From Opitutia bacterium (GTDB lineage Bacteria > Verrucomicrobiota > Verrucomicrobiia > Opitutales > Opitutaceae): a DNA stretch of 39,523 bases. A program made the position numbers and the translations under genes. This document shows positions 28,698 to 39,523 of the stretch, in pieces. A model generated the notes under the pieces. That model was given only the letters and a program-made list of their open reading frames with translations, searched no databases and had not been told where the DNA came from. Every line of letters starts with the position of its first letter. Position 1 is the first letter of the stretch. The stretch spans positions 1 through 39,523 of the forward strand of contig CANJCM010000040.1 of assembly GCA_947472765.1 (NCBI GenBank). Reading direction: 5' to 3'.

Positions 28698-29725
28698 TGA
28701 GTCACATGATTCCAGTGACCGTCTTAATGCCGATTATTGCTCTCGCGGCTGCTCTGCTGGTGCGCTGGGCGGCAGGGATTGCTCGCCGCGTCGCATTGCT
28801 CGATATCCCGAATGAGCGCAGCTCGCACAAGGTACCGGTGCCGAGGATGGGAGGCGCCGCGTTTGTCCCGGTGATGTTTGGGGGGCTGCTGTGCGGTTGG
28901 TCTCCCGATTTCTTTCAAAGAGGGATACCGGCCTCGTTTTTTTGGGGTGCCGCCACACTATATTGCATCGCACTCGTTGACGACATTTGGTCCGTGAATG
29001 CCCCAATCCGCCTGGCTTGCCAGTTCTTTTCCGCGGCGGTTTTCCTCGCTGGAGTTTCGGCCTACCAACCGTTTGTAACATCGTGGCCAGTGTTCGTTGT
29101 GTGCGCGATCTGGATCGTTGGAGTGGTGAACATCTATAATTTTATGGACGGGATCGACGGGATGGCTGGGGTGCAGGGTGTGGCGGCCGGAGTCGGCTGG
29201 TTAATGATTGGGATTGTTTTGGGGACGCCGGCGACTCTTGTGCTGGGGGGCTGCGCTGCTGCGGCGTCGGCCGGGTTTCTCACTCTGAACTGGTATCCCG
29301 CCCGGATTTTTATGGGTGACGCGGGCAGCACGGTTTTGGGCTACTGCTTTGCCTCCGCACCATTTCTCGCTTGGGCTGAATTGGGCGGGCGCCCGCAGGG
29401 GCTCAAAATAGTGTTTGTTGCGTTACTTCTAATTTGGCCATTTCTCGCCGACGGGATTTTCACGATCCTACGGCGGATGCGGAACGGCGAAAATGTTTTG
29501 TTGGCTCATCGGTCTCACTTATATCAAAGGCTGGTCATCGCCGGGAACAGCCCGCAGCGGGTCACCTTGGTCTATGGCGGAATGGCCGCGATCGGGGCTG
29601 TGCTCGGTTGGTTTGTGGTTATCGGGGAAATGGGTCCGTTGTTTCTGGCGGCGGGTCTGGTGAGTGTGTGCTTTTTTGGGCTATGGTGCTGGACCCAAAC
29701 TTCAGAGCGGAAGAGCTTTCCCTGA
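28697..29725 (+). CDS. Undecaprenyl-phosphate sugar-1-phosphate transferase (WecA/MraY/TagO family)
   Basis: Loads the first sugar phosphate from a UDP-sugar onto undecaprenyl phosphate. The 342-residue protein has about ten membrane helices and all core motifs: DIPNERSSHKVPVPRMGG (36-53), LVDDIWS with Asp95/96, NIYNFMDGIDG (145-155), IFMGDAGS (204-211) and the HRSH histidine motif (271-274) typical of WecA-like rather than MraY enzymes. GTG 28697 shares one base with the previous TAG stop; ATG 28706 is an alternative. It is the probable initiating enzyme of the glycan built by the upstream transferases. Confidence 0.92.
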   Translation: MSHMIPVTVLMPIIALAAALLVRWAAGIARRVALLDIPNERSSHKVPVPRMGGAAFVPVMFGGLLCGWSPDFFQRGIPASFFWGAATLYCIALVDDIWSVNAPIRLACQFFSAAVFLAGVSAYQPFVTSWPVFVVCAIWIVGVVNIYNFMDGIDGMAGVQGVAAGVGWLMIGIVLGTPATLVLGGCAAAASAGFLTLNWYPARIFMGDAGSTVLGYCFASAPFLAWAELGGRPQGLKIVFVALLLIWPFLADGIFTILRRMRNGENVLLAHRSHLYQRLVIAGNSPQRVTLVYGGMAAIGAVLGWFVVIGEMGPLFLAAGLVSVCFFGLWCWTQTSERKSFP

Positions 29726-29736
29726 TATGAAAGCAT

Positions 29737-32244
29737 GTGTCGGGGCGTCGCCTGTGGCGAGTTGAGGACGCCTTGCTGATTTCGAGTAGGGTGAGCAAAG
29801 TAATTCATCCCCTTGCCAGGGCTCTCGTGTGGCTATCCCTGATGGGCTCCTGTTCTGTCGGTATGGTTCTTGTCCTCAAGAATGGCGGTCCGGGGCGTTC
29901 AATTGAGAGGCAATTTGCGCCGGGTGTTTTGGGAAGAGAAGCAAGCGTCTTCTTCATGACGAAGCGGACGTTCGCATCGCCGCCTGGGCGGCACTCAAGT
30001 TCCGGCTTCGTCAGCCGTTTTATGTACGGGGTCCCATCTGAATGGTCGGACGCGAACGGCCTTACACCGGCGTTTAGGTTTGCGCACAATTTGGCGTCAG
30101 TGTTCCCGCCTTCGCTTTATCTAGATCACCCGGACTTCTTTCCGTTGCTCGATGGCAAGAGGCTTCAGCCGCCGAACGGGTCCTGGTTTTGGAATCCGGA
30201 TATCGCGCGTGAAGATGTCGCGCGCTACGCGGCCAAAGCGGCCCGGACGGATTTCGAGACGAATCCGGCATTGGTGAGTTTCGCACTCGGCGTGAACGAT
30301 GCACTCATCTGGGGAGAGTCACCGGAGTTGTTGGCGCTAACCGGGGGGCATCCCCCGCCCTCAGGAATTCCGGCGCGCAGGAGTTTTAAGTGGTTCCGGG
30401 AGCGTCCGGATTATTCGAATCTCGTCTTCACCTTTATGAACCGCGCGGCCGCGGAGCTGGAAGAGACTCATCCGGACAAATATCTCGGTGCGCTGGCGTA
30501 CTATTGGTCCGAGAACGCGCCGGAGTTTCCGCTGCATCCGCAGGTGGTGCCATTTTTGACGGCAGATCGCTCACAGGGATATGATGCGAAGTTTAAGCGG
30601 GAGGAGTTGGAGTTGCAGGCTCGCTGGGGGCGGCTGGCCGGAGGGCGGAGGCCGGAGGACGGAGGAGGGATGGCGGAGGGGCGGAATTCCGGAGATTCGG
30701 AATTCCAGAATTCCGGCGTGCCGTCCTCTGGCCTCCGGCTTCCGGCCTCCGTCCGCCGCCTCGGCCTCTACGACTACCTCTACGGTGGCGGCTTCCTGAT
30801 TCCGCGGATTCACACGCGATTGCTCGCCGAAAATCTCCGGCACGCTCGCCAAGCTGGATTCACCGACTACTTTGCGGAGGTAAATCCGAACTGGGGGCTG
30901 GATGGACCGATGCCCTGGCTCGCGGCGCAGTTGCTGCAGGATACGGGACAATCGGCGACCGTCCTGCTCGATGAGTATTACGCGCGGTATTTCCGCGAGG
31001 CCGCGGTTCCGATGCGGCGGTTCTTCGAGCGCTGCGAGGAACTGTGGATGGCGCAGCCGGGACCGCCGTATTGGTTGAAGCACTATCGTAATCAATCGCA
31101 GGCGGTGGTATTTCCGGAGTCGGCGGTGCGGGAGTTGCGTTCAATGCTCGATGCCGCGCAGCGCGACGCCTGGTTCGGTCGGACTCGGGCGCGGGTGCAG
31201 CAGGTGAGTGCGGCCTTCGGCGTGACGGAGCGGTTTCTGGCTTTTCAGGAGGCGCGGGACCGGCTGAAGCGGCTCGCGCTCGCGCCGAGTCCGGGGGGCG
31301 CCGCAGTCGCGGCAGCCGTGCTCACGGATGCGTTGGACGTTTATCTCGGCGCGCGCCGGGAGTTTATTCGTTACACGACCGAACTTCAAAGTGCTGACCC
31401 TTTGGCGGTGCTGAGCTTCGGCTGGGACGACTACTTGAAGGACGACCCGGTGCCGGTGGCATTGTTCGCAATTCAGCGAACCAAGCCCACGGGCACGGCT
31501 TTAGGGGTGCTGCTCGCCGGCGGGCCGAAAGGCGGATCAGAAATACCTCGCGAACGCGGCCCGGCGGTAAACGCCGGCCCTACAATTTTGGAGGAGCCGA
31601 ATGTGGCGGGGTTATGGAAGGCGCTTTCTGACGGAGGAGCGGAGGCCGGAGGCGCGGAGGCGCGGAAGGACGAAAAGCCTGTTTCTAGCTCGGCGGCCGG
31701 CACTCCGACTCTCCGCCCCTCTGACCCTCCGACCACTCGTCAGCTCCTCCGCAATCCATCCATGACCGGCGACGTTAAGCCGTGGCGGACGATTGCCGGT
31801 TTGACCTATGGCGTCGCCCTGCCGTCCGAATGGCAAAGCCGCGTGGAGCCAGCTGAGTTTCATCAGGCGGAACTGGTGGGCGAGGGGACGGATCGCGCGG
31901 TGAGAATCAGCGGGACCAAAGACACGACCGTCTCCCAATGGGCTCCGATGCCTGCCCGGTTGGCTATGGAACCCGGCGGGCTGCAGCGGGCTGGGGTCAC
32001 GGTGCGTGGGCGGGTGTCGCCGGGAACGGCGGTGCACTTGGTCTTTTCGTGGCTGGATGCAAAGGAGCGGCATCTCGGATTCAAAATGCTGCGGCTACCG
32101 GATGGCGACTGGCCGGAGTGGGTCACGTTGCAACAGGCGGGCTGGTCGCCTCCAGGGGCAGCGTGGGTGGGGCTGGGGATTCGGGTCCAGAATCAGGTTG
32201 CGGGTGATTGGGTCGAGGGGAAGGCGTTCAGCGTGTTCGAGTAA
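29737..32244 (+). CDS. DUF4838-like putative carbohydrate-active protein with in-frame repeat inserts
   Basis: The 835-residue protein has one N-terminal hydrophobic segment (ALVWLSLMGSCSVGMVLVL), so it is probably exported or membrane-anchored. The body (about 60-560) looks like the DUF4838 family, related to alpha-glucuronidase/hexosaminidase-type barrels: HPDFFPLLDGKR, FALGVNDALIW, NLVFTFMNRAAAELEETHP, LGALAYYWSENAP, DYFAEVNPNWGLDGPMPWLA and LLDEYYARYF. A C-terminal beta domain follows (about 670-835). Low-complexity stretches encoded by repeats interrupt it near residues 298-342, 607-616 and 632-672. GTG 29737 is the longest start; TTG 29773 with GAGG before it is plausible. Trimming or modification of the surface glycan is a guess from location. 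Confidence 0.7.
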   Translation: MSGRRLWRVEDALLISSRVSKVIHPLARALVWLSLMGSCSVGMVLVLKNGGPGRSIERQFAPGVLGREASVFFMTKRTFASPPGRHSSSGFVSRFMYGVPSEWSDANGLTPAFRFAHNLASVFPPSLYLDHPDFFPLLDGKRLQPPNGSWFWNPDIAREDVARYAAKAARTDFETNPALVSFALGVNDALIWGESPELLALTGGHPPPSGIPARRSFKWFRERPDYSNLVFTFMNRAAAELEETHPDKYLGALAYYWSENAPEFPLHPQVVPFLTADRSQGYDAKFKREELELQARWGRLAGGRRPEDGGGMAEGRNSGDSEFQNSGVPSSGLRLPASVRRLGLYDYLYGGGFLIPRIHTRLLAENLRHARQAGFTDYFAEVNPNWGLDGPMPWLAAQLLQDTGQSATVLLDEYYARYFREAAVPMRRFFERCEELWMAQPGPPYWLKHYRNQSQAVVFPESAVRELRSMLDAAQRDAWFGRTRARVQQVSAAFGVTERFLAFQEARDRLKRLALAPSPGGAAVAAAVLTDALDVYLGARREFIRYTTELQSADPLAVLSFGWDDYLKDDPVPVALFAIQRTKPTGTALGVLLAGGPKGGSEIPRERGPAVNAGPTILEEPNVAGLWKALSDGGAEAGGAEARKDEKPVSSSAAGTPTLRPSDPPTTRQLLRNPSMTGDVKPWRTIAGLTYGVALPSEWQSRVEPAEFHQAELVGEGTDRAVRISGTKDTTVSQWAPMPARLAMEPGGLQRAGVTVRGRVSPGTAVHLVFSWLDAKERHLGFKMLRLPDGDWPEWVTLQQAGWSPPGAAWVGLGIRVQNQVAGDWVEGKAFSVFE
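30629..30761. repeat. In-frame inverted-repeat element inside the DUF4838-like gene
   Basis: The left arm is rich in GGAGG/CGGAGG units (30629-30668) and the right arm is its imperfect complement, CCTCCG/CCTCTGG units (30721-30761). The core holds three GGAATTCC or GAATTCC sites (30681-30714). The core segments GCGGAATTCCGGAG and CGGAATTCCAGA also occur in the insert at 33793 with the same short gap. The element is read through without a stop, adding about 44 Gly/Arg/Ser-rich residues between two conserved parts of the protein. Confidence 0.75.
31555..31583 (-). repeat. REP-like palindrome inside a coding region
   Basis: On the minus strand this reads GTAGGGCCGGCGTTTACCGC and then CGGGCC. 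The GTAG prefix, GGCCGGCG/CGCCGGGCC-type stem and short loop match the REP-like family at 314, 34554 and 39372. It is translated in frame in the DUF4838-like gene as roughly GPAVNAGPTIL. Confidence 0.6.
31630..31752. repeat. Second GGAGG/CCTCC inverted-repeat insert in the DUF4838-like gene
   Basis: The left arm (31630-31668) is made of GGAGGAGCGGAGGCCGGAGG-type units and the right arm (about 31699-31752) of CTCCG/CCTCCG units. The arms are more diverged than in the insert at 30629 and the GGAATTCC core is missing. It adds a Gly/Ala/Glu-rich then Pro/Ser/Thr-rich linker between the catalytic-type domain and the C-terminal beta domain without breaking the frame. Confidence 0.6.
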
Positions 32245-32466
32245 GTGTCTGCCCCATTTCCAAAGGGTGGGAGGGTTATAAATATTTTTTAATCTGAAGC
32301 TTGTGCGTGACGTATGTTGCAAGGAGTTCTGGAGGTTCTGGCTCGATTTGCGAAGATTGGACCTCATTCTGAAGCTCGTGCTGTTTCGCGAAGGTATCAG
32401 TGCGGCAGGTGACGCCACCATGCCCGAGTTCAAGCCGATCGAACATCGTTCCGGAGGGGGCCGCCT
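32245..32466 (+). promoter_or_regulatory. Leader before the FlaA1-type gene, possible promoter
   Basis: This 222-base gap contains TATAAA at 32277-32282 in an AT-rich patch and a T-run at 32285-32290. A weak stem (CCCAT/GTGGG, 32253-32271) precedes the T-run at a distance too long for a standard terminator. No good -35 box is seen. The reading 'promoter for the downstream gene' is therefore weak. Short open frames here look like chance or decayed coding sequence. Confidence 0.25.
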
Positions 32467-34536
32467 GTGATCAACTTGGCGCGGAATCGCCGGACCTTCG
32501 TCCTGGCCTTGATTTATGCGGCCGTGGTGGGCGCGAGCTGGTATCTGGCTTACGAAATTCGGTTCGACTTCCTTGTGCCGGAATTCCAGCAAGAGCAGCG
32601 GCTGCGGCTGCTCCCCTGGGTCATAGGGGTCAAGTTGGTGGCGCTCGTGGCGATGCGCCAGCTCGGCAGCCTGATGACCTATTTCAGTGTGCCAGATTTG
32701 CTGCGTTTGTTCTGGGCGATGGGCGCTTCGAGCACGCTGTTGTTTGTGCCGCGCGTCCTGCTGCCGTCGACCCCGCTTTCGACTCCCCGTGGTGTGTTGC
32801 TCACCGATTTCATGCTGTGCTTCGGCATCCTTTGTGTGGGGCGGCTGGGTCTCCGGCTCTACCGGGAACGCCTCAGCGGCAGTCGTCGGACCGGCGGCGT
32901 CCAGCCCCAGCTTCAGCGGATCGCGATTATCGGGGCCGGCGATGCCGGCGCCAGTCTCGCGAAGGAATTTCTCGGATCGCCGGCCCGCGGGTTCCGGCCG
33001 GTCATGTTTTTCGATGACGATCCGCAGAAGCACGGGAAGCTCGTTCACGGTCTTCCGGTGGTGGGACGACCGGAGGCGCTCGCGACCGTCAAGGATGCCG
33101 CGACGCTCGCCAAGGCGGTGATCGCGATGCCGTCGGCGACGGCCAAGCGGGTGAAGGAAGTGGTGCTGATTTGCACGGAGCAGGGTCTCAAGGTGGAGAC
33201 CTTGCCTTCGCTCGAGGAGCTGACGTCGGGACGGGTGCGGGTGAATCGGATCCGACCGGTCGAGGTGCAGGACTTGCTCGGACGCGAAGCCGTCAATCTC
33301 GATTCCCAGTCGATCCGGCAGATGCTCGAAGGGCGCATTATCATGGTGACTGGCGCCGGCGGCAGCATCGGCAGCGAACTTTGCCGGCAGATTGCCGCGA
33401 TGAATCCAAAGCGGTTGTTGATGGTCGAGCAGGCGGAAGGGGCCCTTTTTACCATTGAGCAGGAGCTGAACGAGACGGGACTCGGGTCCATCGCGGTTTC
33501 GCTCGTCGGCGACATTCTCGATCGCGAGCGGATGGAGTTCATTTTTTCGCGGTATACTCCTGACGTCGTCTTTCACGCCGCGGCCCACAAACACGTCTAC
33601 ATGATGGAGCGACAGCCGGCCGAGGCCATTCGCAACAACGTGCTCGGAACCCGGCAGCTCGCGCGAATCGCGGCCGCGCACAGTGTGGATGCCTTCGTGC
33701 TCATTTCCACGGACAAGGCGATCAATCCGACGAGCGTGATGGGGGCGACGAAGCGCCTGGCGGAGATTCAATTGATGGCCCTGCATGCGCTGGCGGAATT
33801 CCGGAGCCCCGGAATTCCAGAGGCCGGAGGTCAGGGGACGGAGGTCGGAGGACGGAGGACGGAGGACCGGAGGGGCGGAGGGGCGGAGGTACTTCCGGCC
33901 TTCGAATCCGCCGGAGCAGAGGATCCGAATTCCAACGGCCAAGCGATCCAGCGTTCCGGCGCTCCGCGCCTCCGACCCTCCGTTTCTCCGACCCTCCGGT
34001 TCTCCGGCTCTAAGCCGACCAAGTTCATGGCGGTCCGTTTCGGGAATGTGCTGGGGTCATCGGGCAGCGTGATTCCGATCTTCAAGCGCCAGATCGCGAA
34101 TGGCGGTCCGGTGACCGTCACGCATCCGGAAGTCACGCGCTACTTCATGACGATTCCCGAGGCGGTCGGCCTTGTGCTGCAAACCTCGGTGCTCGGTCAG
34201 GGTGGGGAGATCTTCGTTTTGGATATGGGGCAGCCGGTGAAAATCATCGACCTCGCCCGGCAGATGATCGAGCTGAGCGGGTTCAAGCCCGGTGACGACA
34301 TCGAGATTCGGTTCACGGGCCTCAAGCCCGGGGAGAAGTTATTCGAGGAATTGCAGCACCACACCGAGGATTACGCCCCGACGTCGCACCCGCGGATCAC
34401 GCGGCTGACCAGCAACGCGATGTTCAGCGAGTCCGTTGTGCGGGAGCTGGAACAGCGCTTGTACCAGTTCGACTCGAACCAGTTGAAAGAACTGCTGAAG
34501 CGACTGGTGCCGGAGTACACGCCGTTTTTGGATTAA
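32467..34536 (+). CDS. FlaA1/WbpM/CapD-type NDP-sugar 4,6-dehydratase/epimerase
   Basis: The 689-residue protein has four N-terminal membrane helices and a first Rossmann-like domain (IAIIGAGDAGASLAKEF, about 153-169). The catalytic SDR domain has MVTGAGGSIGSELCRQ near 293, FHAAAHKHVYMMERQPAEAI, LISTDKAINPTSVMGATKR with Met in place of the usual Tyr, and VRFGNVLGSSGSVIPIF. Such enzymes convert UDP-GlcNAc-type sugars to 4-keto-6-deoxy forms. GTG 32467 follows GGAGGGGG. A repeat-derived insert of about 73 residues (443-515) splits the conserved region between the MGATKR helix and the VRFGN strand. Family members are usually nearer 600-650 residues. Confidence 0.9.
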   Translation: MINLARNRRTFVLALIYAAVVGASWYLAYEIRFDFLVPEFQQEQRLRLLPWVIGVKLVALVAMRQLGSLMTYFSVPDLLRLFWAMGASSTLLFVPRVLLPSTPLSTPRGVLLTDFMLCFGILCVGRLGLRLYRERLSGSRRTGGVQPQLQRIAIIGAGDAGASLAKEFLGSPARGFRPVMFFDDDPQKHGKLVHGLPVVGRPEALATVKDAATLAKAVIAMPSATAKRVKEVVLICTEQGLKVETLPSLEELTSGRVRVNRIRPVEVQDLLGREAVNLDSQSIRQMLEGRIIMVTGAGGSIGSELCRQIAAMNPKRLLMVEQAEGALFTIEQELNETGLGSIAVSLVGDILDRERMEFIFSRYTPDVVFHAAAHKHVYMMERQPAEAIRNNVLGTRQLARIAAAHSVDAFVLISTDKAINPTSVMGATKRLAEIQLMALHALAEFRSPGIPEAGGQGTEVGGRRTEDRRGGGAEVLPAFESAGAEDPNSNGQAIQRSGAPRLRPSVSPTLRFSGSKPTKFMAVRFGNVLGSSGSVIPIFKRQIANGGPVTVTHPEVTRYFMTIPEAVGLVLQTSVLGQGGEIFVLDMGQPVKIIDLARQMIELSGFKPGDDIEIRFTGLKPGEKLFEELQHHTEDYAPTSHPRITRLTSNAMFSESVVRELEQRLYQFDSNQLKELLKRLVPEYTPFLD
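33793..34012. repeat. In-frame inverted-repeat element inside the FlaA1-type gene
   Basis: It begins with GCGGAATTCCGGAG (33793-33806) and CGGAATTCCAGA (33810-33821), the same core as at 30681-30709. A left arm of GGAGG(A/T)CGG units (33822-33890) and a complementary right arm of CTCCG/CCTCCG units (about 33955-34012) surround a unique centre. The reading frame stays open for all ~220 bases, adding about 73 Gly/Arg/Glu-rich and then Pro/Ser/Arg-rich residues at a surface-loop position of the SDR domain. Confidence 0.78.
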
Positions 34537-34553
34537 AGGCCCATATCAGTCTT

Positions 34554-34584
34554 GTAGGGCCGTCGCTCGTCGACGCGCCGCTTC
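34554..34584 (+). repeat. REP-like palindrome with GTAG prefix
   Basis: GTAGGGCCGTCGCTCGTCGA then CGCGCCGCTTC. CGTCG/CGACG form the stem, with outer G-C pairs. It starts 18 bases after the FlaA1-type stop. Near-identical copies lie at 39191 and 39372. Confidence 0.6.
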
Positions 34585-34599
34585 TCCTTTTTCTCCAAG

Positions 34600-34782
34600 C
34601 CGTTTTAACCACGAAGGCACGAAGTGCCTGATTCCGAAGCTGGCTTGGTAGCCCGCTGCGTGAGCAGCGGGACGGCAGGCGACGCGACAAGAAATCCCTG
34701 TCCTCACGGACAGGGCCACGCGGATGGTTGGTCTGGGACGATGCCTTTGCTTCGTGACTTCGTGTCTTCGTGGTTAAACGGC
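34600..34782. repeat. MITE-like unit with inverted AACCACGAAG ends
   Basis: The left end (34600-34627) carries TTAACCACGAAGGCACGAAG and the right end (34749-34782) the inverse, CTTCGTGTCTTCGTGGTTAA. The interior carries the REPIN at 34648-34719. The right-end 30-mer at 34749-34778 recurs without change at 35520, 35874 and 38035. Confidence 0.6.
34648..34719 (+). repeat. REPIN-like paired hairpins, copy 1
   Basis: GTAG (34648-34651) precedes hairpin 1, CCCGCTGC-GTGA-GCAGCGGG. Hairpin 2, CCCTGTCC-TCAC-GGACAGGG (34696-34715), is followed by CCAC. Read inverted, the second unit is GTGG plus a hairpin with the same GTGA loop, so the two halves are inverted REPs with different but fully paired stems. 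A second copy is at 37670-37745. Confidence 0.75.
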
Positions 34783-34790
34783 TCGGGATT

Positions 34791-34840
34791 CAATCCCCCA
34801 ATCGGTTTGAACGCAGAGCCAACCCGAGGGGATCCGAGGT
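34791..34840 (-). repeat. Inverted copy of a ~48-bp module
   Basis: On the minus strand this matches, with a handful of mismatches, the module at 35467 and 37972 (CCTCGGATTGCCTCGGGTCG...CCAAACCGATTGGGG). It is a third copy in the opposite orientation. Confidence 0.55.
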
Positions 34841-34865
34841 CGAGCTCTCAGACATCGATCTCAAA

Positions 34866-34974
34866 CCGGTTTAACCACGAAGACACAGAGTTCACAAAGC
34901 TTTGGGCTCTGCCCCGACCAATCCATCCGGACCCAAGGCGTTTTTCACCACCGAGGCACCGAGACACCGAGACG
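34866..34974. repeat. Periodic modules AACCACGAAGACACAGAG and CACCGAGGCACCGAGACACC
   Basis: Two 8-9 nt periodic modules lie at 34866-34895 and 34941-34974. Related modules occur at 35420-35453, 35605-35634, 35734-35762, 35829-35850 and 37927-37958, in both orientations. Confidence 0.55.
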
Positions 34975-34983
34975 AACAATCCA

Positions 34984-35040
34984 GCGCGCACGAGGGCTGC
35001 GGAATGGAAGCCACGTAATGAAGGCAGCCCTCGTGCGCGC
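34984..35040. repeat. Perfect 17-bp inverted repeat
   Basis: GCGCGCACGAGGGCTGC (34984-35000) and its exact complement GCAGCCCTCGTGCGCGC (35024-35040) are separated by 23 bases. A shorter relative is found at 37888-37918. Confidence 0.75.
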
Positions 35041-35044
35041 GGGT

Positions 35045-35072
35045 CGCACCGCTCGGACGTTGTCCTCGCGTC
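35045..35072 (+). repeat. 28-bp segment repeated exactly in inverted orientation
   Basis: This segment (CGCACCGCTCGGACGTTGTC and eight more bases) is matched exactly by its reverse complement at 37858-37885. Each copy sits next to a GCGCG-ACGAGGGC palindrome. Confidence 0.7.
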
Positions 35073-35150
35073 TGTGGGTGAACCCACTTCGGCGTTGTTG
35101 CCGGTGGATTGAAACCCGCTCCCGGTTTGTTGTATGGCCAGTGGCTCGGC

Positions 35151-35245
35151 ATCCTGGCCATCCTGCCCATCCTGTCCAAACTCCAGATGCCGGAGGCCGG
35201 AAATCCCCGGAACTATTTCGACAGGATGAACAGGATGGACAGGAT
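35151..35245. repeat. Inverted repeat built of ATCCTGNCC units
   Basis: Three tandem ATCCTG-type 9-mers (35151-35178) face three inverted ones (35220-35245, AGGATGNAC units) across a 41-base spacer. The layout is like the AACCACGAAG units but the motif is different. Confidence 0.6.
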
Positions 35246-35351
35246 ACCGGGCGGCGGGGGTTGGTCGGATCGGAGAGCGTTCAGAAGCGGCACGTCGACG
35301 AGCCGTTCGACAGGCTCACGGCCTGACGTTCGCTCAAAATAAAGGCCCTGA

Positions 35352-35414
35352 GCTAGGTCGAAGGGTGACGGCCCTACGCCCCGGACCTTGGCGCCTTGGC
35401 GTCTTTGCGCTTCG
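35352..35414 (-). repeat. REP-like palindrome followed by a GCGCAAAGACGCCAAGG-type module
   Basis: On the minus strand 35352-35376 reads GTAGGGCCGTCACCCTTCGA, a member of the GTAGGGC REP-like set. 35386-35414 is the inverse of CGCAAAGACGCCAAGG, also present at 35681-35703 and 39149-39176 on the plus strand. Confidence 0.5.
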
Positions 35415-35466
35415 TCTGGGCTCCGTGTACTCCGTGCGCTCTGTGGTTAAACGGATTGAAGCTCGA

Positions 35467-35557
35467 CCTCGGATTGCCTCGGGTCGACTCCGTGTTCCAA
35501 CCCGATTGGGATTGGATGCGCTTCGTGACTTCGTGTCTTCGTGGTTAAATGGATTGC
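35467..35557 (+). repeat. ~90-bp direct repeat, copy A
   Basis: Starts CCTCGGATTGCCTCGGGTCG and ends with the CTTCGTGACTTCGTGTCTTC module. Copy B at 37972-38073 has the same order of modules with a few substitutions and about 11 extra bases. The two copies flank the ligase-family gene. Confidence 0.7.
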
Positions 35558-35856
35558 GAGGTTCACGCGGAGGCGCGGAGACGCGGAGCAATCCCCAGGC
35601 ATTTTTCACCACCGAGTCACCGAGACACCGAGTCGTGTGAATTTTCGATTTTGGAGTCTCGATTTTCGATTTTCGGACGAAGCGCAAAGACGCCAAGGGG
35701 CGAAGGGCCGGCCAACGCAGGAGCCCGGGCATTTTTAACCACGAAGACACGAAGGGCACAGAGCCAATCAATCCAATGGCCACAGGAGGCGCATGAGGCA
35801 CAGGGGTTCGGGATCCGACTCGGTGTAATCCGTGCACTCGGTGGTTAAAGTGGTGC

Positions 35857-35904
35857 TTGGGCCCGATGCCGGTGCTTCGTGACTTCGTGTCTTCGTGGTT
35901 AAAA
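35857..35904 (+). repeat. Partial copy of the direct repeat abutting the ligase gene
   Basis: TTGGGCCCGAT...GCTTCGTGACTTCGTG matches 38020-38065. The exact 30-mer copy is at 35874-35903, 34 bases from the 3' end of the minus-strand ligase gene, so the gene's transcript would run into it. Confidence 0.6.
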
Positions 35905-35936
35905 GGCTCGGTCAGTGGTTGGAATCCGGCGGCGCG

Positions 35937-37442
35937 TCACGACTTCACGTTCATCTCTTCCATCTGCGTCCACATGAGCACCGCGACCCAGCACGCGCAC
36001 CAAGTGAGGAGAATCGCAGGGTTTTGAAACGGGAAATCCCACCACGAATACCCGAGCAAGAGCAGCAGACCGAGCACCACGGAGACACTCAGCGGGTTTT
36101 GCCAAAAGAAACTTCGAAGGAGCCCGAACGCCAGATACCCGGCGCCAGCGAAGAGGATCAGCATGCCGGGCAGACCGAGTTCGATCGGGAATTCCAGAAT
36201 ATCGTTGTGGGCGTGCTCCCAAAACATCCGCCGGCCGTTATTGTCAAAGATGGCCGGGAAGCGCTGCTGATAAACCGGGAAGAGAAACTTGAAGCTGCCC
36301 GCGCCGGTGCCCATTTGCCAGTGATCGTTCAACATGCCGAGCGAGGCCTGCGTCGCAATCCGGCGCGACTCCAGCGACGTGTCCTTCTCCATCAAACCGT
36401 CGGAAAGCCGGTCCCACGCGATGTGCGACTGCAGCGCTTCCATGCCGGTCTTGAGGAAGTACCCGAAGAGCAGAATCAGGACGACCGCGACGATCGAACG
36501 ACGGTGTTCCGGCGGCACGACAAACTGATGTACGATGAAAGCGCCAATGCTCAGCGTCAGGAAGACCAGCATGACCAACGTCGCGCCGCGGGCATAGCTG
36601 ACCAGCACGGAGACCGCGATGCACGTGGCCATGAAAGCAAAGACGCCCGCGGGATTCGATTTCTCCAAGCGTCGTAGTCCACGCAAATAGTACCAAGCCG
36701 CGAGGCCGCAAGTGACCGCAAGGGAAATATCCAGATAGGCTCCCGCGTGGTTCTTATAAACGAAACTGGAAAAAAAAGAACCCGAAGGGGATTTCCAGAA
36801 CCAGAACATCTTTCCGTTTGAGAGCATCCGCTGCGTGATCCCAAAAGCGGCGATTAACAGGCCATTGAACGCCAGCGTCAGAAAAAGGACTTGGATCGAA
36901 CGACGGCGGGTGAAGCCGATCCACATCGCGCAGAGCACCAGCCAGATCGAGCTATAAACTATGAGCACCCGCCACGCATCCCAGCGGCTAAAAGGTGCGG
37001 CGACCCCCGCCGGCAGCCACTCCGTGTAAGGAATGCCTCTCATCCACCAGCCCTTGCCGTCCGTGGCGTAGGCCCAAGCAGGGTTCAGTGCCTGAACGAC
37101 AATTAGGCCGAGCAGGGCCAGCCCGAGCCAAAAGAGGGGGAAGCGAATCAGCTTCGGCCACATGATGAGCCGGAAGGACGCGGCGCCAGTGTGTTCCTCG
37201 CGGTAATTTCGCGGGAGGAGGGCGACGATAAAGCCCAGGAGCGCGAGCCCGAGGCTGATAAATTGCGCCCAAGATGGCATGCCTCCGATCGCCCAAGGGA
37301 GGAAGACCAGATGGGCGCAGATGACCCAAAGCAGGCTGAGTTCGGTCGGGTGGACCTTCAGCCGTTTGGTTTTGGCGCGGAAGTGGTCCAGCGGCCGCTG
37401 GAGGGCGCTGTAGTTGGGTGGGGGCTCGCGGCCAGGAATCAC
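35937..37442 (-). CDS. O-antigen ligase / Wzy_C-type membrane protein
   Basis: The 501-residue protein has roughly eleven or twelve membrane helices and a large outer loop. Family marks are SSFVYKNHAGAYLDISLAV, the charged loop with SRRIATQASLGMLNDHW, GTGAGSFKFLFPVYQQ and EHAHNDILEFPIELGLPG, the His-Asn motif of O-antigen ligases. These enzymes move polymer from undecaprenyl diphosphate to an acceptor such as lipid A core; some relatives act as polymerases or protein glycosyltransferases. GTG 37442 is the start. It is the only gene after 7.4 kb on the minus strand and is bracketed by repeat mosaics, so it may be transcribed alone. Confidence 0.88.
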   Translation of the reverse strand: MIPGREPPPNYSALQRPLDHFRAKTKRLKVHPTELSLLWVICAHLVFLPWAIGGMPSWAQFISLGLALLGFIVALLPRNYREEHTGAASFRLIMWPKLIRFPLFWLGLALLGLIVVQALNPAWAYATDGKGWWMRGIPYTEWLPAGVAAPFSRWDAWRVLIVYSSIWLVLCAMWIGFTRRRSIQVLFLTLAFNGLLIAAFGITQRMLSNGKMFWFWKSPSGSFFSSFVYKNHAGAYLDISLAVTCGLAAWYYLRGLRRLEKSNPAGVFAFMATCIAVSVLVSYARGATLVMLVFLTLSIGAFIVHQFVVPPEHRRSIVAVVLILLFGYFLKTGMEALQSHIAWDRLSDGLMEKDTSLESRRIATQASLGMLNDHWQMGTGAGSFKFLFPVYQQRFPAIFDNNGRRMFWEHAHNDILEFPIELGLPGMLILFAGAGYLAFGLLRSFFWQNPLSVSVVLGLLLLLGYSWWDFPFQNPAILLTWCACWVAVLMWTQMEEMNVKS

Positions 37443-37506
37443 GCCGTCACGGTGAGGGTGGGATTTTGGATTTTCGATTCCGATTTTCGATTTTTTCGGA
37501 GGGGCA

Positions 37507-37571
37507 CCACTAATTGACGCTAATTGGACACTAATCCTGAGCTAACCACTAACGGACACTAAAGGGACACT
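37507..37571. repeat. Tandem 8-9 nt repeats of the GACACTAAT type
   Basis: CACTAATTGACGCTAATTGG, ACACTAATCC, CCACTAACGG and ACACTAAAGG follow one another with an 8-9 base period just upstream of the ligase gene start. Confidence 0.5.
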
Positions 37572-37636
37572 CATCCGAGCCGGCGCGCACGAGAGCCCCT
37601 CGCGCGAAGATTCCGAACCGCGTCCCGATCCTCTTG

Positions 37637-37784
37637 GTCGTCTAATACGTGGATTCCTAAGTTGGCCGCGTAGCCCGCTGCGTGAGCAGCGGGACGACTT
37701 TAAGCGAAGCGATCGAGAAGTCCCTGTCCTCACGGACAGGGCCACGCCGAGCCCTTTAACTTCGGAATCCAAGTAATAGACGAC
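37637..37784. repeat. MITE-like unit with 27-bp inverted ends around a REPIN
   Basis: The left end, 37637-37663 (GTCGTCTAATACGTGGATTC...), and the right end, 37758-37784 (...GGAATCCAAGTAATAGACGA), are inverted copies with three mismatches. The interior is REPIN copy 2. The inner part of the left end (GATTCC-AAG-TGGC) is also next to REPIN copy 1. Confidence 0.7.
37670..37745 (+). repeat. REPIN-like paired hairpins, copy 2
   Basis: GTAG (37670-37673), CCCGCTGC-GTGA-GCAGCGGG (37674-37693), a spacer differing from copy 1, CCCTGTCC-TCAC-GGACAGGG (37722-37741) and CCAC. Both hairpins are identical to copy 1 while the spacer has diverged, as expected if the hairpins are what is conserved. Confidence 0.75.
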
Positions 37785-37857
37785 TAACACCGCGCCTCCG
37801 CACCGTTCGGAAACCGGCGGAGGCGCGGAGCCGGCCAAAGATGGGCGGCTGCCCACC

Positions 37858-37918
37858 GACGCGAGGACAACGTCCGAGCGGTGCGCCCCGCGCGGACGAG
37901 GGCTGCCCTCGTACGCGC
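37858..37918 (-). repeat. Inverted copy of the 28-bp segment plus palindrome
   Basis: 37858-37885 is the exact reverse complement of 35045-35072. 37888-37918 is the imperfect palindrome GCGCGGACGAGGGC/GCCCTCGTACGCGC, a compact form of the palindrome at 34984-35040 without its spacer. Confidence 0.7.
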
Positions 37919-37971
37919 TGGATTGGTCTCGGTGCCTCGGTGTCTCGGTGGTTACAACCGTTTGCTGCCGG

Positions 37972-38073
37972 CCTCGGATTGCCTCGGGTCGACTCTGTGT
38001 TCCAAACCGATTGGGGATTGGGCCCGATTCCAGCGCTTCGTGACTTCGTGTCTTCGTGGTTAAACCGGATTGG
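37972..38073 (+). repeat. ~95-bp direct repeat, copy B
   Basis: Same module order as 35467-35557, ending with the exact 30-mer CTTCGTG module at 38035-38064. It lies just upstream of the nagA-like gene. Confidence 0.7.
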
Positions 38074-38142
38074 ATGGGTCACCTCCGTCCTCCCGAATTC
38101 CGTCTTGGCCCGCCCGGGCCTTTATTCGTATTCGTAGTCCCC

Positions 38143-39075
38143 ATGCCCTCCGCTGCTCCCGCGTTTAACGATCTCTTCGACTTTCAGGTCAACGGCTTCG
38201 CCGGTGTCGATTACCAGCGCGATGACGTCACGCTCGATCAGATCCGCCGTTCCGTGGACGGGCTCCGCCAGCATGGGACCTCGCGGATTTTTGCGACGCT
38301 CATCACCGATCATGTCGAGGCGCTCTGCCGGCGCTACGAACGGCTGGAGAAATTCCGCGCCGCCGATCCGGCGATCGCGAGCATGTTTGTCGGCTACCAT
38401 CTCGAGGGGCCGTGGCTCTGCCCCGAAGAGGGTTACCGCGGGGCGCATCCCGCCGCGCCGATGGGACCGCCGTCGCTGGCCGCGTTCGAGCGGCTGCAGG
38501 CCGCGGCCGGCGGACGAATCAAACTGGTGACGCTTGCGCCGGAGTGGCCGGGCAGCCCGGAGTTCATCGCCGCGCTCGTGGCGCAGGGGATCAACATTTC
38601 CCTCGGCCATACCAACGCGTCCGCGGCGCACATCGATGCCGCCATCAAGGCCGGGGCCCGCTTCTGCACCCACCTCGGCAACGGCGCGCCGCAGATGATG
38701 CACCGTCACGACAATGTCATTCAACGGCTGCTCGCCCGCGACGAACTTACCGCCTGCCTGATTCCCGACGGCATCCATTTGCCTCCGTTTGTCGTGCAGA
38801 ACTTCGTGCGCGCGAAACCGGCGGGGAAGGTGTTGTTCACGACGGATTGCATGTCGGGCGCCGGCGCGGGCCCGGGTCGCTACACCATCGGCGTGCATCC
38901 GATTGAGGTCGGTGCGGATGGCATCGCGCGCAATCCCCGCTCGGGCGGCGGCTTTGCCGGCTCGACGCTCGCACCCGATGACGGTGTCCGGAATGTGGCG
39001 AAGTTCCTCGGGATCCCGCTGGCGGAGTCGCATCGGTTGTGGTCGAGCGCGGCGGCGGACGCCTTCGGCGTCTGA
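38143..39075 (+). CDS. nagA: Short N-acetylglucosamine-6-phosphate deacetylase (NagA-type)
   Basis: Removes acetate from GlcNAc-6-phosphate during amino-sugar recycling. The amidohydrolase-type barrel shows FDFQVNGFAGVD at its start, GYHLEGPWLCPEEGYRGAHP (metal-ligand Glu), ISLGHTNASAAHIDAAI and FCTHLGNGAPQM (metal-ligand His residues), LIPDGIHLPPFVV and FTTDCMSGAGAGPGRY with the catalytic-type Asp. At 310 residues it is shorter than the usual ~380 because most of the small N-terminal beta domain is missing. ATG 38143 is chosen; the frame's extension to 38056 reads repeat DNA. It is isolated between repeat arrays, so membership in the polysaccharide locus is uncertain. Confidence 0.88.
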   Translation: MPSAAPAFNDLFDFQVNGFAGVDYQRDDVTLDQIRRSVDGLRQHGTSRIFATLITDHVEALCRRYERLEKFRAADPAIASMFVGYHLEGPWLCPEEGYRGAHPAAPMGPPSLAAFERLQAAAGGRIKLVTLAPEWPGSPEFIAALVAQGINISLGHTNASAAHIDAAIKAGARFCTHLGNGAPQMMHRHDNVIQRLLARDELTACLIPDGIHLPPFVVQNFVRAKPAGKVLFTTDCMSGAGAGPGRYTIGVHPIEVGADGIARNPRSGGGFAGSTLAPDDGVRNVAKFLGIPLAESHRLWSSAAADAFGV

Positions 39076-39190
39076 AGGACGGAGGGCGGAGGACGGCGGC
39101 GTTTTTAGCCACGGATTACACCGATTGCACCGATTGGATCCGTCGGACTAAGCGCAAAGACGCTAAGACGCCAAGGTTGAGGGGATCGTT
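39076..39190. repeat. Repeat modules directly after nagA
   Basis: GGACGGAGGGCGGAGGACGG (39076-39097) is a lone left arm of the GGAGG element family. CACGGATTACACCGATTGCA (about 39109-39140) is an 8-9 nt periodic motif. 39149-39176 carries CGCAAAGACGCTAAGACGCC. Confidence 0.55.
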
Positions 39191-39222
39191 GTAGGGGCGA
39201 CGAGTGCCGGCGCGCCGCTTCA
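39191..39222 (+). repeat. REP-like palindrome with GTAG prefix
   Basis: GTAGGGGCGACGAGTGCCGG then CGCGCCGCTTC; a variant of the units at 34554 and 39372 with the same GCGCCGCTTC end. Confidence 0.5.
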
Positions 39223-39229
39223 CGTTGCC

Positions 39230-39319
39230 CCATGGAGGGCGGGTGCCCTCACCCGCCAATAGGCCTTGGAGAATTTAGATACGAAATCCGTGGCCGGTGG
39301 GGGCACCGGCCCTCCATGG
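39230..39319. repeat. Second REPIN-like family, ends CCATGGAGGGC/GCCCTCCATGG
   Basis: Perfect 11-bp inverted ends (39230-39240 and 39309-39319). Each is part of a hairpin: GGCGGGTG-CCCT-CACCCGCC on the left and, read inverted, GGCCGGTG-CCCC-CACCGGCC on the right. The stems differ by paired changes. A further copy starts at 39484. Confidence 0.7.
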
Positions 39320-39371
39320 AACGCGAAATTCGTGATGACGGATCGAAGGAATCCGTTGCGCCGGTTCGATT

Positions 39372-39403
39372 GTAGGGCCGTCGCTCGCCGACGTGCCGCT
39401 TCG
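39372..39403 (+). repeat. REP-like palindrome with GTAG prefix
   Basis: GTAGGGCCGTCGCTCGCCGA then CGTGCCGCTTC; nearly identical to 34554-34584. Confidence 0.6.
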
Positions 39404-39483
39404 CGAAGGAAGGACGTGACGCCGGACTGGGTTGAGCCTGAAGCCAGGAAACCCTGAGCACACCCCGGAGTTCCACTTCTTCA

Positions 39484-39523
39484 ATGGAGGGCGGGTGCCC
39501 TCACCCGCCAATAGGCCGTGGAG
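39484..39523 (+). repeat. Left half of another TGGAGGGC REPIN-like element, cut by window end
   Basis: ATGGAGGGCGGGTGCCCTCA then CCCGCCAATAGGCC repeats 39232-39265 almost exactly; the right half lies outside the window. Confidence 0.65.

Follow-up and report, generated by a model that had tools for sequence, protein, structure and literature searches.

The window, i.e., the whole 39,523-nucleotide stretch of DNA that was analysed, contains a plus-strand open reading frame that starts with GTG, encodes 689 amino acids without an internal stop and accommodates, in frame between its MGATKR and VRFGNVLGSSG motifs, an insert of about 73 residues whose DNA is built of short inverted repeats. The preliminary description had placed this insert at 33793..34012, with the frame open throughout and both flanking motifs intact; all of this is borne out, the coordinates being correct to within a few bases. 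Upstream lies a second gene that harbours further copies of the repeat. The features are as follows:

29737..32244, plus strand: upstream gene with a DUF4838 domain, carrying two further repeat copies (open reading frame, Pfam)
30636..30768, plus strand: second hairpin read in frame, located in the DUF4838 gene and sharing the heptamers and the GGAATTCC core of the insert
31556..31586, minus strand: GTAG-type REP-like hairpin, read in frame within the DUF4838 gene and belonging to another, known kind of repeat (by comparison with the accessible text of PMC3733652)
31627..31737, plus strand: third in-frame copy, with octamer arms, at about residues 631–667 of the DUF4838 protein
32467..34536, plus strand: host gene, a PglF/WbpM-type UDP-sugar 4,6-dehydratase (open reading frame, Pfam, AlphaFold, PglF structures)
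33739..33756, plus strand: MGATKR motif, 5' flank of the insert, with the invariant M425 and K429
33794..34017, plus strand: insert of about 73 residues (about 444–517), its boundaries estimated from the 17-residue loops of relatives
33794..33818, plus strand: inner palindrome CGGAATTCCGGAG-CCC-CGGAATTCC, with one other genome site found, at 30682
33820..33889, plus strand: left arm, CGGAGGN heptamers grading into CGGAGGNN octamers
33955..34008, plus strand: right arm, CTCCGNNN octamers in the opposite orientation to the left arm
34033..34065, plus strand: VRFGNVLGSSG motif, 3' flank of the insert (placed by motif position)

The host protein combines CoA_binding_3 and Polysacc_synt_2 domains with predicted N-terminal helices, and its Pfam match to PF02719 is split into two stretches. 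The nearest solved structures are the PglF entries of Campylobacter jejuni (5bju and related ones), with which the protein has the fold and the catalytic residues in common: the residues that name the PglF variants, T395, D396, K397 and M405, correspond to T415, D416, K417 and M425. With the TDK and M catalytic residues, the Polysacc_synt_2 domain and the PglF fold all present, the FlaA1/WbpM-type assignment made earlier stands. M425 and K429 are invariant across 42 aligned sequences, the host protein counted. PglF has only about six residues where the host protein has about 80, and the match between the two sequences is broken over query residues 439–520, equivalent to 176–183 of the PglF chain. 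In the AlphaFold model, 460 of the 689 residues have a pLDDT of at least 90, while values below 50 are found at residues 453–509 and also at 140–144; the insert is predicted to form a disordered loop on an enzyme core that the model renders as confident and intact.

At the DNA level, the insert forms an imperfect hairpin whose arms consist of CGGAGGN heptamers and of octamers, and a small separate palindrome with two GGAATTCC sites stands at its 5' end. The inverted-repeat build claimed at the outset is indeed present, with a GGAATTCC core, a GGAGG(A/T)CGG left arm and a CCTCCG right arm; the segment folds better than all 200 of 200 dinucleotide shuffles (z of −5.17 as DNA and −4.55 as RNA), and the lag-7 score of the insert is reached by none of 500 codon shuffles. 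The GGAATTCC palindrome had also been put forward as the signature of a repeat family, a role that is not supported: allowing up to three mismatches, it occurs genome-wide only at 30682 and 33794, both within the window. The dispersed unit is instead the CGGAGGN heptamer or octamer, itself one among many unrelated heptamers in these genomes. Neither this unit nor its complement, CCTCCGN, yields a stop codon, regardless of phase and of the base at N (256 four-unit arrangements per strand), so that a CGGAGGN hairpin is readable from end to end; a CTCTCAA unit, by contrast, is free of stops on one strand only. The actual insert has one stop in one of its three forward frames, which is not the frame of the dehydratase. 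The stop-free nature of the unit may account for the tolerance of the insert. A search of positions 29000–39523 of the window against Rfam gave no match.

We compared the dehydratase loop among relatives on a 35-row tree, for which 36 loci had been tried and from which the loop itself was excluded; the rows L033 and L073 are identical. The 15 rows of the genus have loops of 17, 17, 17, 34, 35, 43, 49, 50, 50, 52, 56, 56, 59, 90 and 144 residues, and the 17-residue loops of L017, L018 and L024 served to place the boundaries of the insert. Outside the genus clade, the loop measures 18–19 residues in 18 of 20 rows, the exceptions being L023 (67) and L072 (23). The earlier view that a short loop normally separates the two motifs is correct for these near relatives and for PglF but does not extend across bacteria, where the length ranges from 16 to 71 residues (83 of 84 loci read); because of this variation, the site is permissive in any case. 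Alignment with homologues, which the preliminary description had suggested, shows that the insert is absent from the near relatives at this position, i.e., a palindromic DNA repeat lies in frame in a gene whose relatives are without it. Among the loops read, none from a distant taxon carries the same peptide without the DNA repeat, and the long loops found elsewhere are unrelated in sequence.

Twenty-six of 30 loops of the WbpM-type enzymes could be read, all of them in frame and stop-free (the reading accepted open loops only), and a clear 7-nt period was found in just two of the 26 (L012 and L015; 30 tried), so that the other long loops must have another, or an eroded, origin. For the insert of L015, a search of the genome that carries it gave no further match at E≤0.01 (five candidates). 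L019, L021 and L022 have clearly similar loops, and a short SRAPF stretch is common to them and L026. The latter (G022:C9) has the 144-residue loop, which is rich in GGNGNGH-like segments, shows neither a hairpin nor a clear 7-nt period and is of other origin. A single ancient insertion inherited throughout the genus was rejected as an explanation, since for the most part the loops are not related by sequence, and some of them measure 17 residues.

Within its own genome (G000, assembled in 157 contigs), the element gave at least 11 BLAST matches at nine places, itself counted (40 of 56 candidates scored, hence a lower bound), one of which, elsewhere in the genome, spans 37 nt at 92% identity. 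The CGGAGGN pattern was found 69 times, against 17 for the reversed control. BLAST and pattern matches were grouped by eye into about 28 places, 19 of which were inspected: three lie in genes backed by Pfam and by relatives (the dehydratase, the DUF4838 gene and a PilB/GspE-like ATPase), and the remaining 16 are intergenic, at gene edges or in open reading frames without family support. The genome thus has at least three in-frame copies beyond that of the dehydratase, two in the DUF4838 gene and one in the PilB/GspE gene, which answers the call for such a search and places the repeat in unrelated genes of one genome.

These matches bear on the simplest alternative, namely ordinary drift of a permissive loop, with local slippage producing the array and GC-rich composition its likeness to dispersed repeats. 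Such drift would fit both the variable loop length across bacteria and the 24 of 26 loops that have no clear 7-nt period, and several of the remaining loops may have arisen in this way. For the insert itself, it is disfavoured by the 37-nt and other matches elsewhere in the genome; moreover, the arms are inverted, codon shuffling never reproduces the lag-7 score, and a local process such as slippage leaves the occurrence of one unit at about 28 places unexplained. We therefore regard drift as an improbable origin for this insert, and an origin from a dispersed repeat as the better reading.

Both copies in the DUF4838 gene fall where relatives differ. The hairpin at 30636..30768 is stop-free in all six frames and folds with a z of −7.6 against codon shuffles; the loop that matches it is short in L194–L206 (13 loci) and filled differently in L188, L189, L190 and L192 (L191 and L193 were left unread). 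At 31627..31737, the matches to relatives break, ending near residues 576–596 and resuming at 658–683. The PilB copy interrupts the N domain between IIPI and LHLATAW (MshEN, matched weakly and below the Pfam cut-off).

The surroundings hold other repeats as well. The GTAG REP-like hairpin at 31556–31586 sits about 40 nt ahead of the octamer hairpin in the DUF4838 gene, and further GTAG hairpins occur in intergenic-looking DNA of the window at 34554, 39191 and 39372. The intergenic-looking stretches 34540–35900 and 37450–39523 are dense in other repeats (ACCACGAAGACACGAAG, CACCGAGA octamers, ATTTTCG heptamers and CATCCTGCC nonamers), and a 59-nt inverted pair (35020–35078 and 37852–37910, 93% complementary, 2.8 kb apart) flanks an open reading frame of 501 residues (35937–37442). 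At the locus L153 (G000:C49) of the same genome, a CGGAGG heptamer array at 828 and a GTAG hairpin at 1096 both lie upstream of one Y1_Tnp match. In a relative (L189, G010:C223), the corresponding DUF4838 loop is encoded by DNA with a strong 8-nt period (score of 21).

We then turned to samples chosen independently of the repeats, 400 kb each of the own genome and of G029, a closed genome of 5957605 bases. At an array score of at least 11, these contain 25 and 28 period-7 arrays, respectively, against none in either shuffled sample, and no other single period from 4 to 13 exceeds nine arrays. Raising the score to at least 12 leaves 17 arrays in the own genome, 15 intergenic and two in called genes near doubtful starts; none of the 17 is clearly inside a gene as judged by a simple gene caller, so that in-gene copies are a small minority here. 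The 23 arrays of G029 comprise 15 intergenic, one edge and seven interior ones, and all three arrays of G030 are interior (G029 and G030 are both single-contig assemblies). Protein readings were obtained for nine of the 12 interior arrays. According to Pfam, the array genes of G029 and G030 encode an HrpA-like helicase (three arrays), a MetH-like protein, an exosortase, a WD40 protein, a MarR-like regulator, a P-type ATPase (two arrays) and a DNA-ligase-domain protein. In two of these, the WD40 protein and the P-type ATPase, a domain match encloses the array; in the others, the array is placed between domain matches or next to one, and several arrays are apparently linkers. An exact inverted partner of at least 11 nt within 260 nt accompanies 11 of the 17 arrays of the own genome (two arms of one hairpin may both count), against 27 of 2000 random 30-mers; the corresponding figures for G029 are 4 of 23 and 18 of 2000. 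The heptamer control is uninformative in G029, where the reversed pattern is nearly the same array (388 versus 230 matches).

Other genomes have few arrays or none: one in 200 kb in G017 and none in 100 kb each of G020, G034 and G038. Their WbpM loops measure 17, 17, 19 and 19 residues, respectively; the PilB loops, too, are shortest in G017 and G020, and that of G034 falls narrowly below the threshold (4/500). Arrays and a heptameric PilB loop occur together in G000, G002, G007, G029 and G030, and arrays without a heptamer in the PilB loop in G022, G023 and G031. G015 has a 17-residue WbpM loop yet a heptameric PilB loop (its array load is unsampled). Heptamer-rich (G000, G002) and nearly heptamer-free genomes (G017, G020) thus coexist in one genus.

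Opitutus terrae is known for intragenic GTAG REPs, reportedly described by Di Nocera and colleagues, and the insert could be an element of that kind, moved by Y1 transposases of the host as is thought for REPs. The own genome has seven Y1_Tnp (RAYT-like) matches, the window has GTAG-tagged hairpins, including the one in frame in the DUF4838 gene, and intragenic GTAG REPs are most numerous in O. terrae according to the accessible text of PMC3733652. The insert, however, is an array hairpin of about 220 nt rather than a stem-loop of 20–40 nt with a GTAG tag at one end, and neither GTAG nor CTAC occurs in 33794–34017. Nor do the transposase counts follow the arrays: G017 and G020 have four and seven matches yet the few or no arrays given above, G007 has one match yet 10 arrays in 100 kb, of which three are plain GC repeats, and G029 has four matches. 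Across 11 genomes (G038, sampled for arrays, was outside the Y1_Tnp search), period-7 density does not visibly follow the number of Y1_Tnp matches, although such counts cannot pair an enzyme with a repeat. A REP/RAYT origin thus appears unlikely, and RAYT number does not appear to drive the heptamers, as the counts do not fit. A heptamer array distinct from GTAG REPs remains the preferred reading.

The PilB/GspE gene offers a second site at which to follow the heptamers across genomes (30 best matches, one per genome, own counted), with the caveat that PilB and DUF4838, being chosen for repeat presence in the own genome, are a non-random gene sample. All 30 loops were read in frame and without a stop, the method again accepting only open loops, and the loop DNA has a 7-nt period in 11 of the 30 genomes, own counted (matched by at most 2 of 500 codon shuffles). 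Pooled lag-7 identity is 0.522, against 0.275 in codon shuffles (z of 19; 10 loops of at least 75 nt among 22 read), while, 7, 14 and 21 apart, no lag up to 21 exceeds a z of 3.7. As 7 is not a multiple of 3, selection on the peptide would not produce this period. L183 has its insert in common with the own copy, L157, and the other heptameric loops differ in unit (ACAGAGG types, CTCTCAG, AACTCCG, GAGACAG, GGAGAAG, CCCTCAA and a CATTCC type). Hairpin z values against codon shuffles reach −9.5 for L177 and −9.9 for L183, with only −1.3 for L157.

The open loops also bear on whether the hairpin reaches the protein at all. Mitochondrial bypass elements are hairpins dealt with by ribosome skipping or RNA processing, and the very stable RNA fold of the insert would suit a similar fate. 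Under skipping there would be no need to keep the frame, yet the loops read are in frame and stop-free in both families (PilB 30 of 30, WbpM 26 of 30), with the qualification that broken loops would appear as unread because only open loops were accepted; in addition, R. conorii proteins with an N-terminal RPE-1 are reported as expressed in the accessible text of PMC3733652. An untranslated hairpin is thus highly improbable. An assembly artefact, which the fragmentation of the own genome might suggest, is scarcely credible given analogous inserts in many other genomes, the single-contig G029 and G030 among them.

Altogether, the insert very probably represents one copy of an array of 7- and 8-nt units, dispersed and able to form hairpins, that resides in a permissive dehydratase loop and has survived by retaining the frame, similar events having occurred across the family. 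Such an array would have landed in, or been copied into, the loop and would have been kept because the reading frame was preserved. Its presumed translation product is a Gly/Arg/Glu- and Pro/Ser-rich disordered peptide, and with the core and catalytic residues kept, the enzyme would probably remain active and the insert be close to neutral. Our best guess is that the unit spreads by heptamer slippage plus fold-back copying. These events would recur, with a heptamer mix that varies by genome and heptamers entering loops and linkers of unrelated proteins; the heptamer class seems to be active across a bacterial family, presumably Opitutaceae (L083 adjoins the genus in the tree), and repeat DNA of a junk-like kind apparently supplies functioning proteins with new stretches of peptide. 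More tentatively, and with some doubt, heptamer-armed hairpins could be a class of mobile DNA set by architecture (a 7-nt period and inverted arms) and not by sequence, whose unit mix turns over between species, perhaps via DNA synthesis in 7-nt steps that copies back, and which repeatedly enters the same loops and supplies disordered segments across the Opitutaceae proteome.

If this is correct, protein-coding selfish DNA would extend from Rickettsia RPEs and intragenic REPs to another kind of repeat, and one protein loop would have been filled repeatedly by unrelated repeats. Enzymes with empty and filled loops form a natural series in which the acceptance of junk by proteins can be tested, and the occurrence of heptamer-rich and nearly heptamer-free genomes within one genus makes it possible to test where the long-noted bacterial bias towards 7-nt repeats comes from.

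Cyanobacterial heptanucleotide tandem repeats go by the name of STRR, and the dispersed 7-nt arrays of this genome resemble them, with arms that are here partly octameric. A MITE would have terminal inverted repeats, a target-site duplication and a parent transposon; of these, the analysis covered the arms of the insert, which are inverted. Protein-coding RPEs and intragenic GTAG REPs are already known, and heptamer-armed hairpins as protein-coding insertions in Opitutaceae or Verrucomicrobia genes were not found in the literature searched (titles and abstract openings, few subscription journals). RPEs, compared here by description, are palindromes of about 150 bp that lie in frame in many unrelated Rickettsia genes and are read as peptide, according to the accessible text of PMC10969869. 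A palindromic repeat in frame in unrelated genes is common to both, and the RPE-like, repeat-derived and apparently tolerated character first ascribed to the insert is supported; the arms of the insert differ in being tandem 7- and 8-mers, with a unit mix that varies between genomes. The R. conorii RPE sequences end in CGTC (PMC3733652, accessible text), which is absent from the plus strand of the insert, a weak test as the complement GACG occurs within the heptamer array. The GTAG REPs of O. terrae, probably of the same bacterial family, likewise lie in frame in conserved genes, sometimes two per gene (PMC3733652, accessible text), but are stem-loops of 20–40 bp with a GTAG tag, whereas the insert is a heptamer/octamer array without GTAG; the window carries hairpins of both kinds. 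Finally, in many bacterial genomes heptanucleotide repeats are noted to be the most frequent class, slippage having been proposed as the mechanism, and those of Xanthomonas (GGGAATC) and Beggiatoaceae (TAACTGA) are reported to be mainly intergenic, direct arrays (PMC4679880 and PMC4692102, accessible text). The 7-nt units and the many dispersed copies are features in common; the arrays described here, in contrast, often have an inverted partner and lie repeatedly inside genes.
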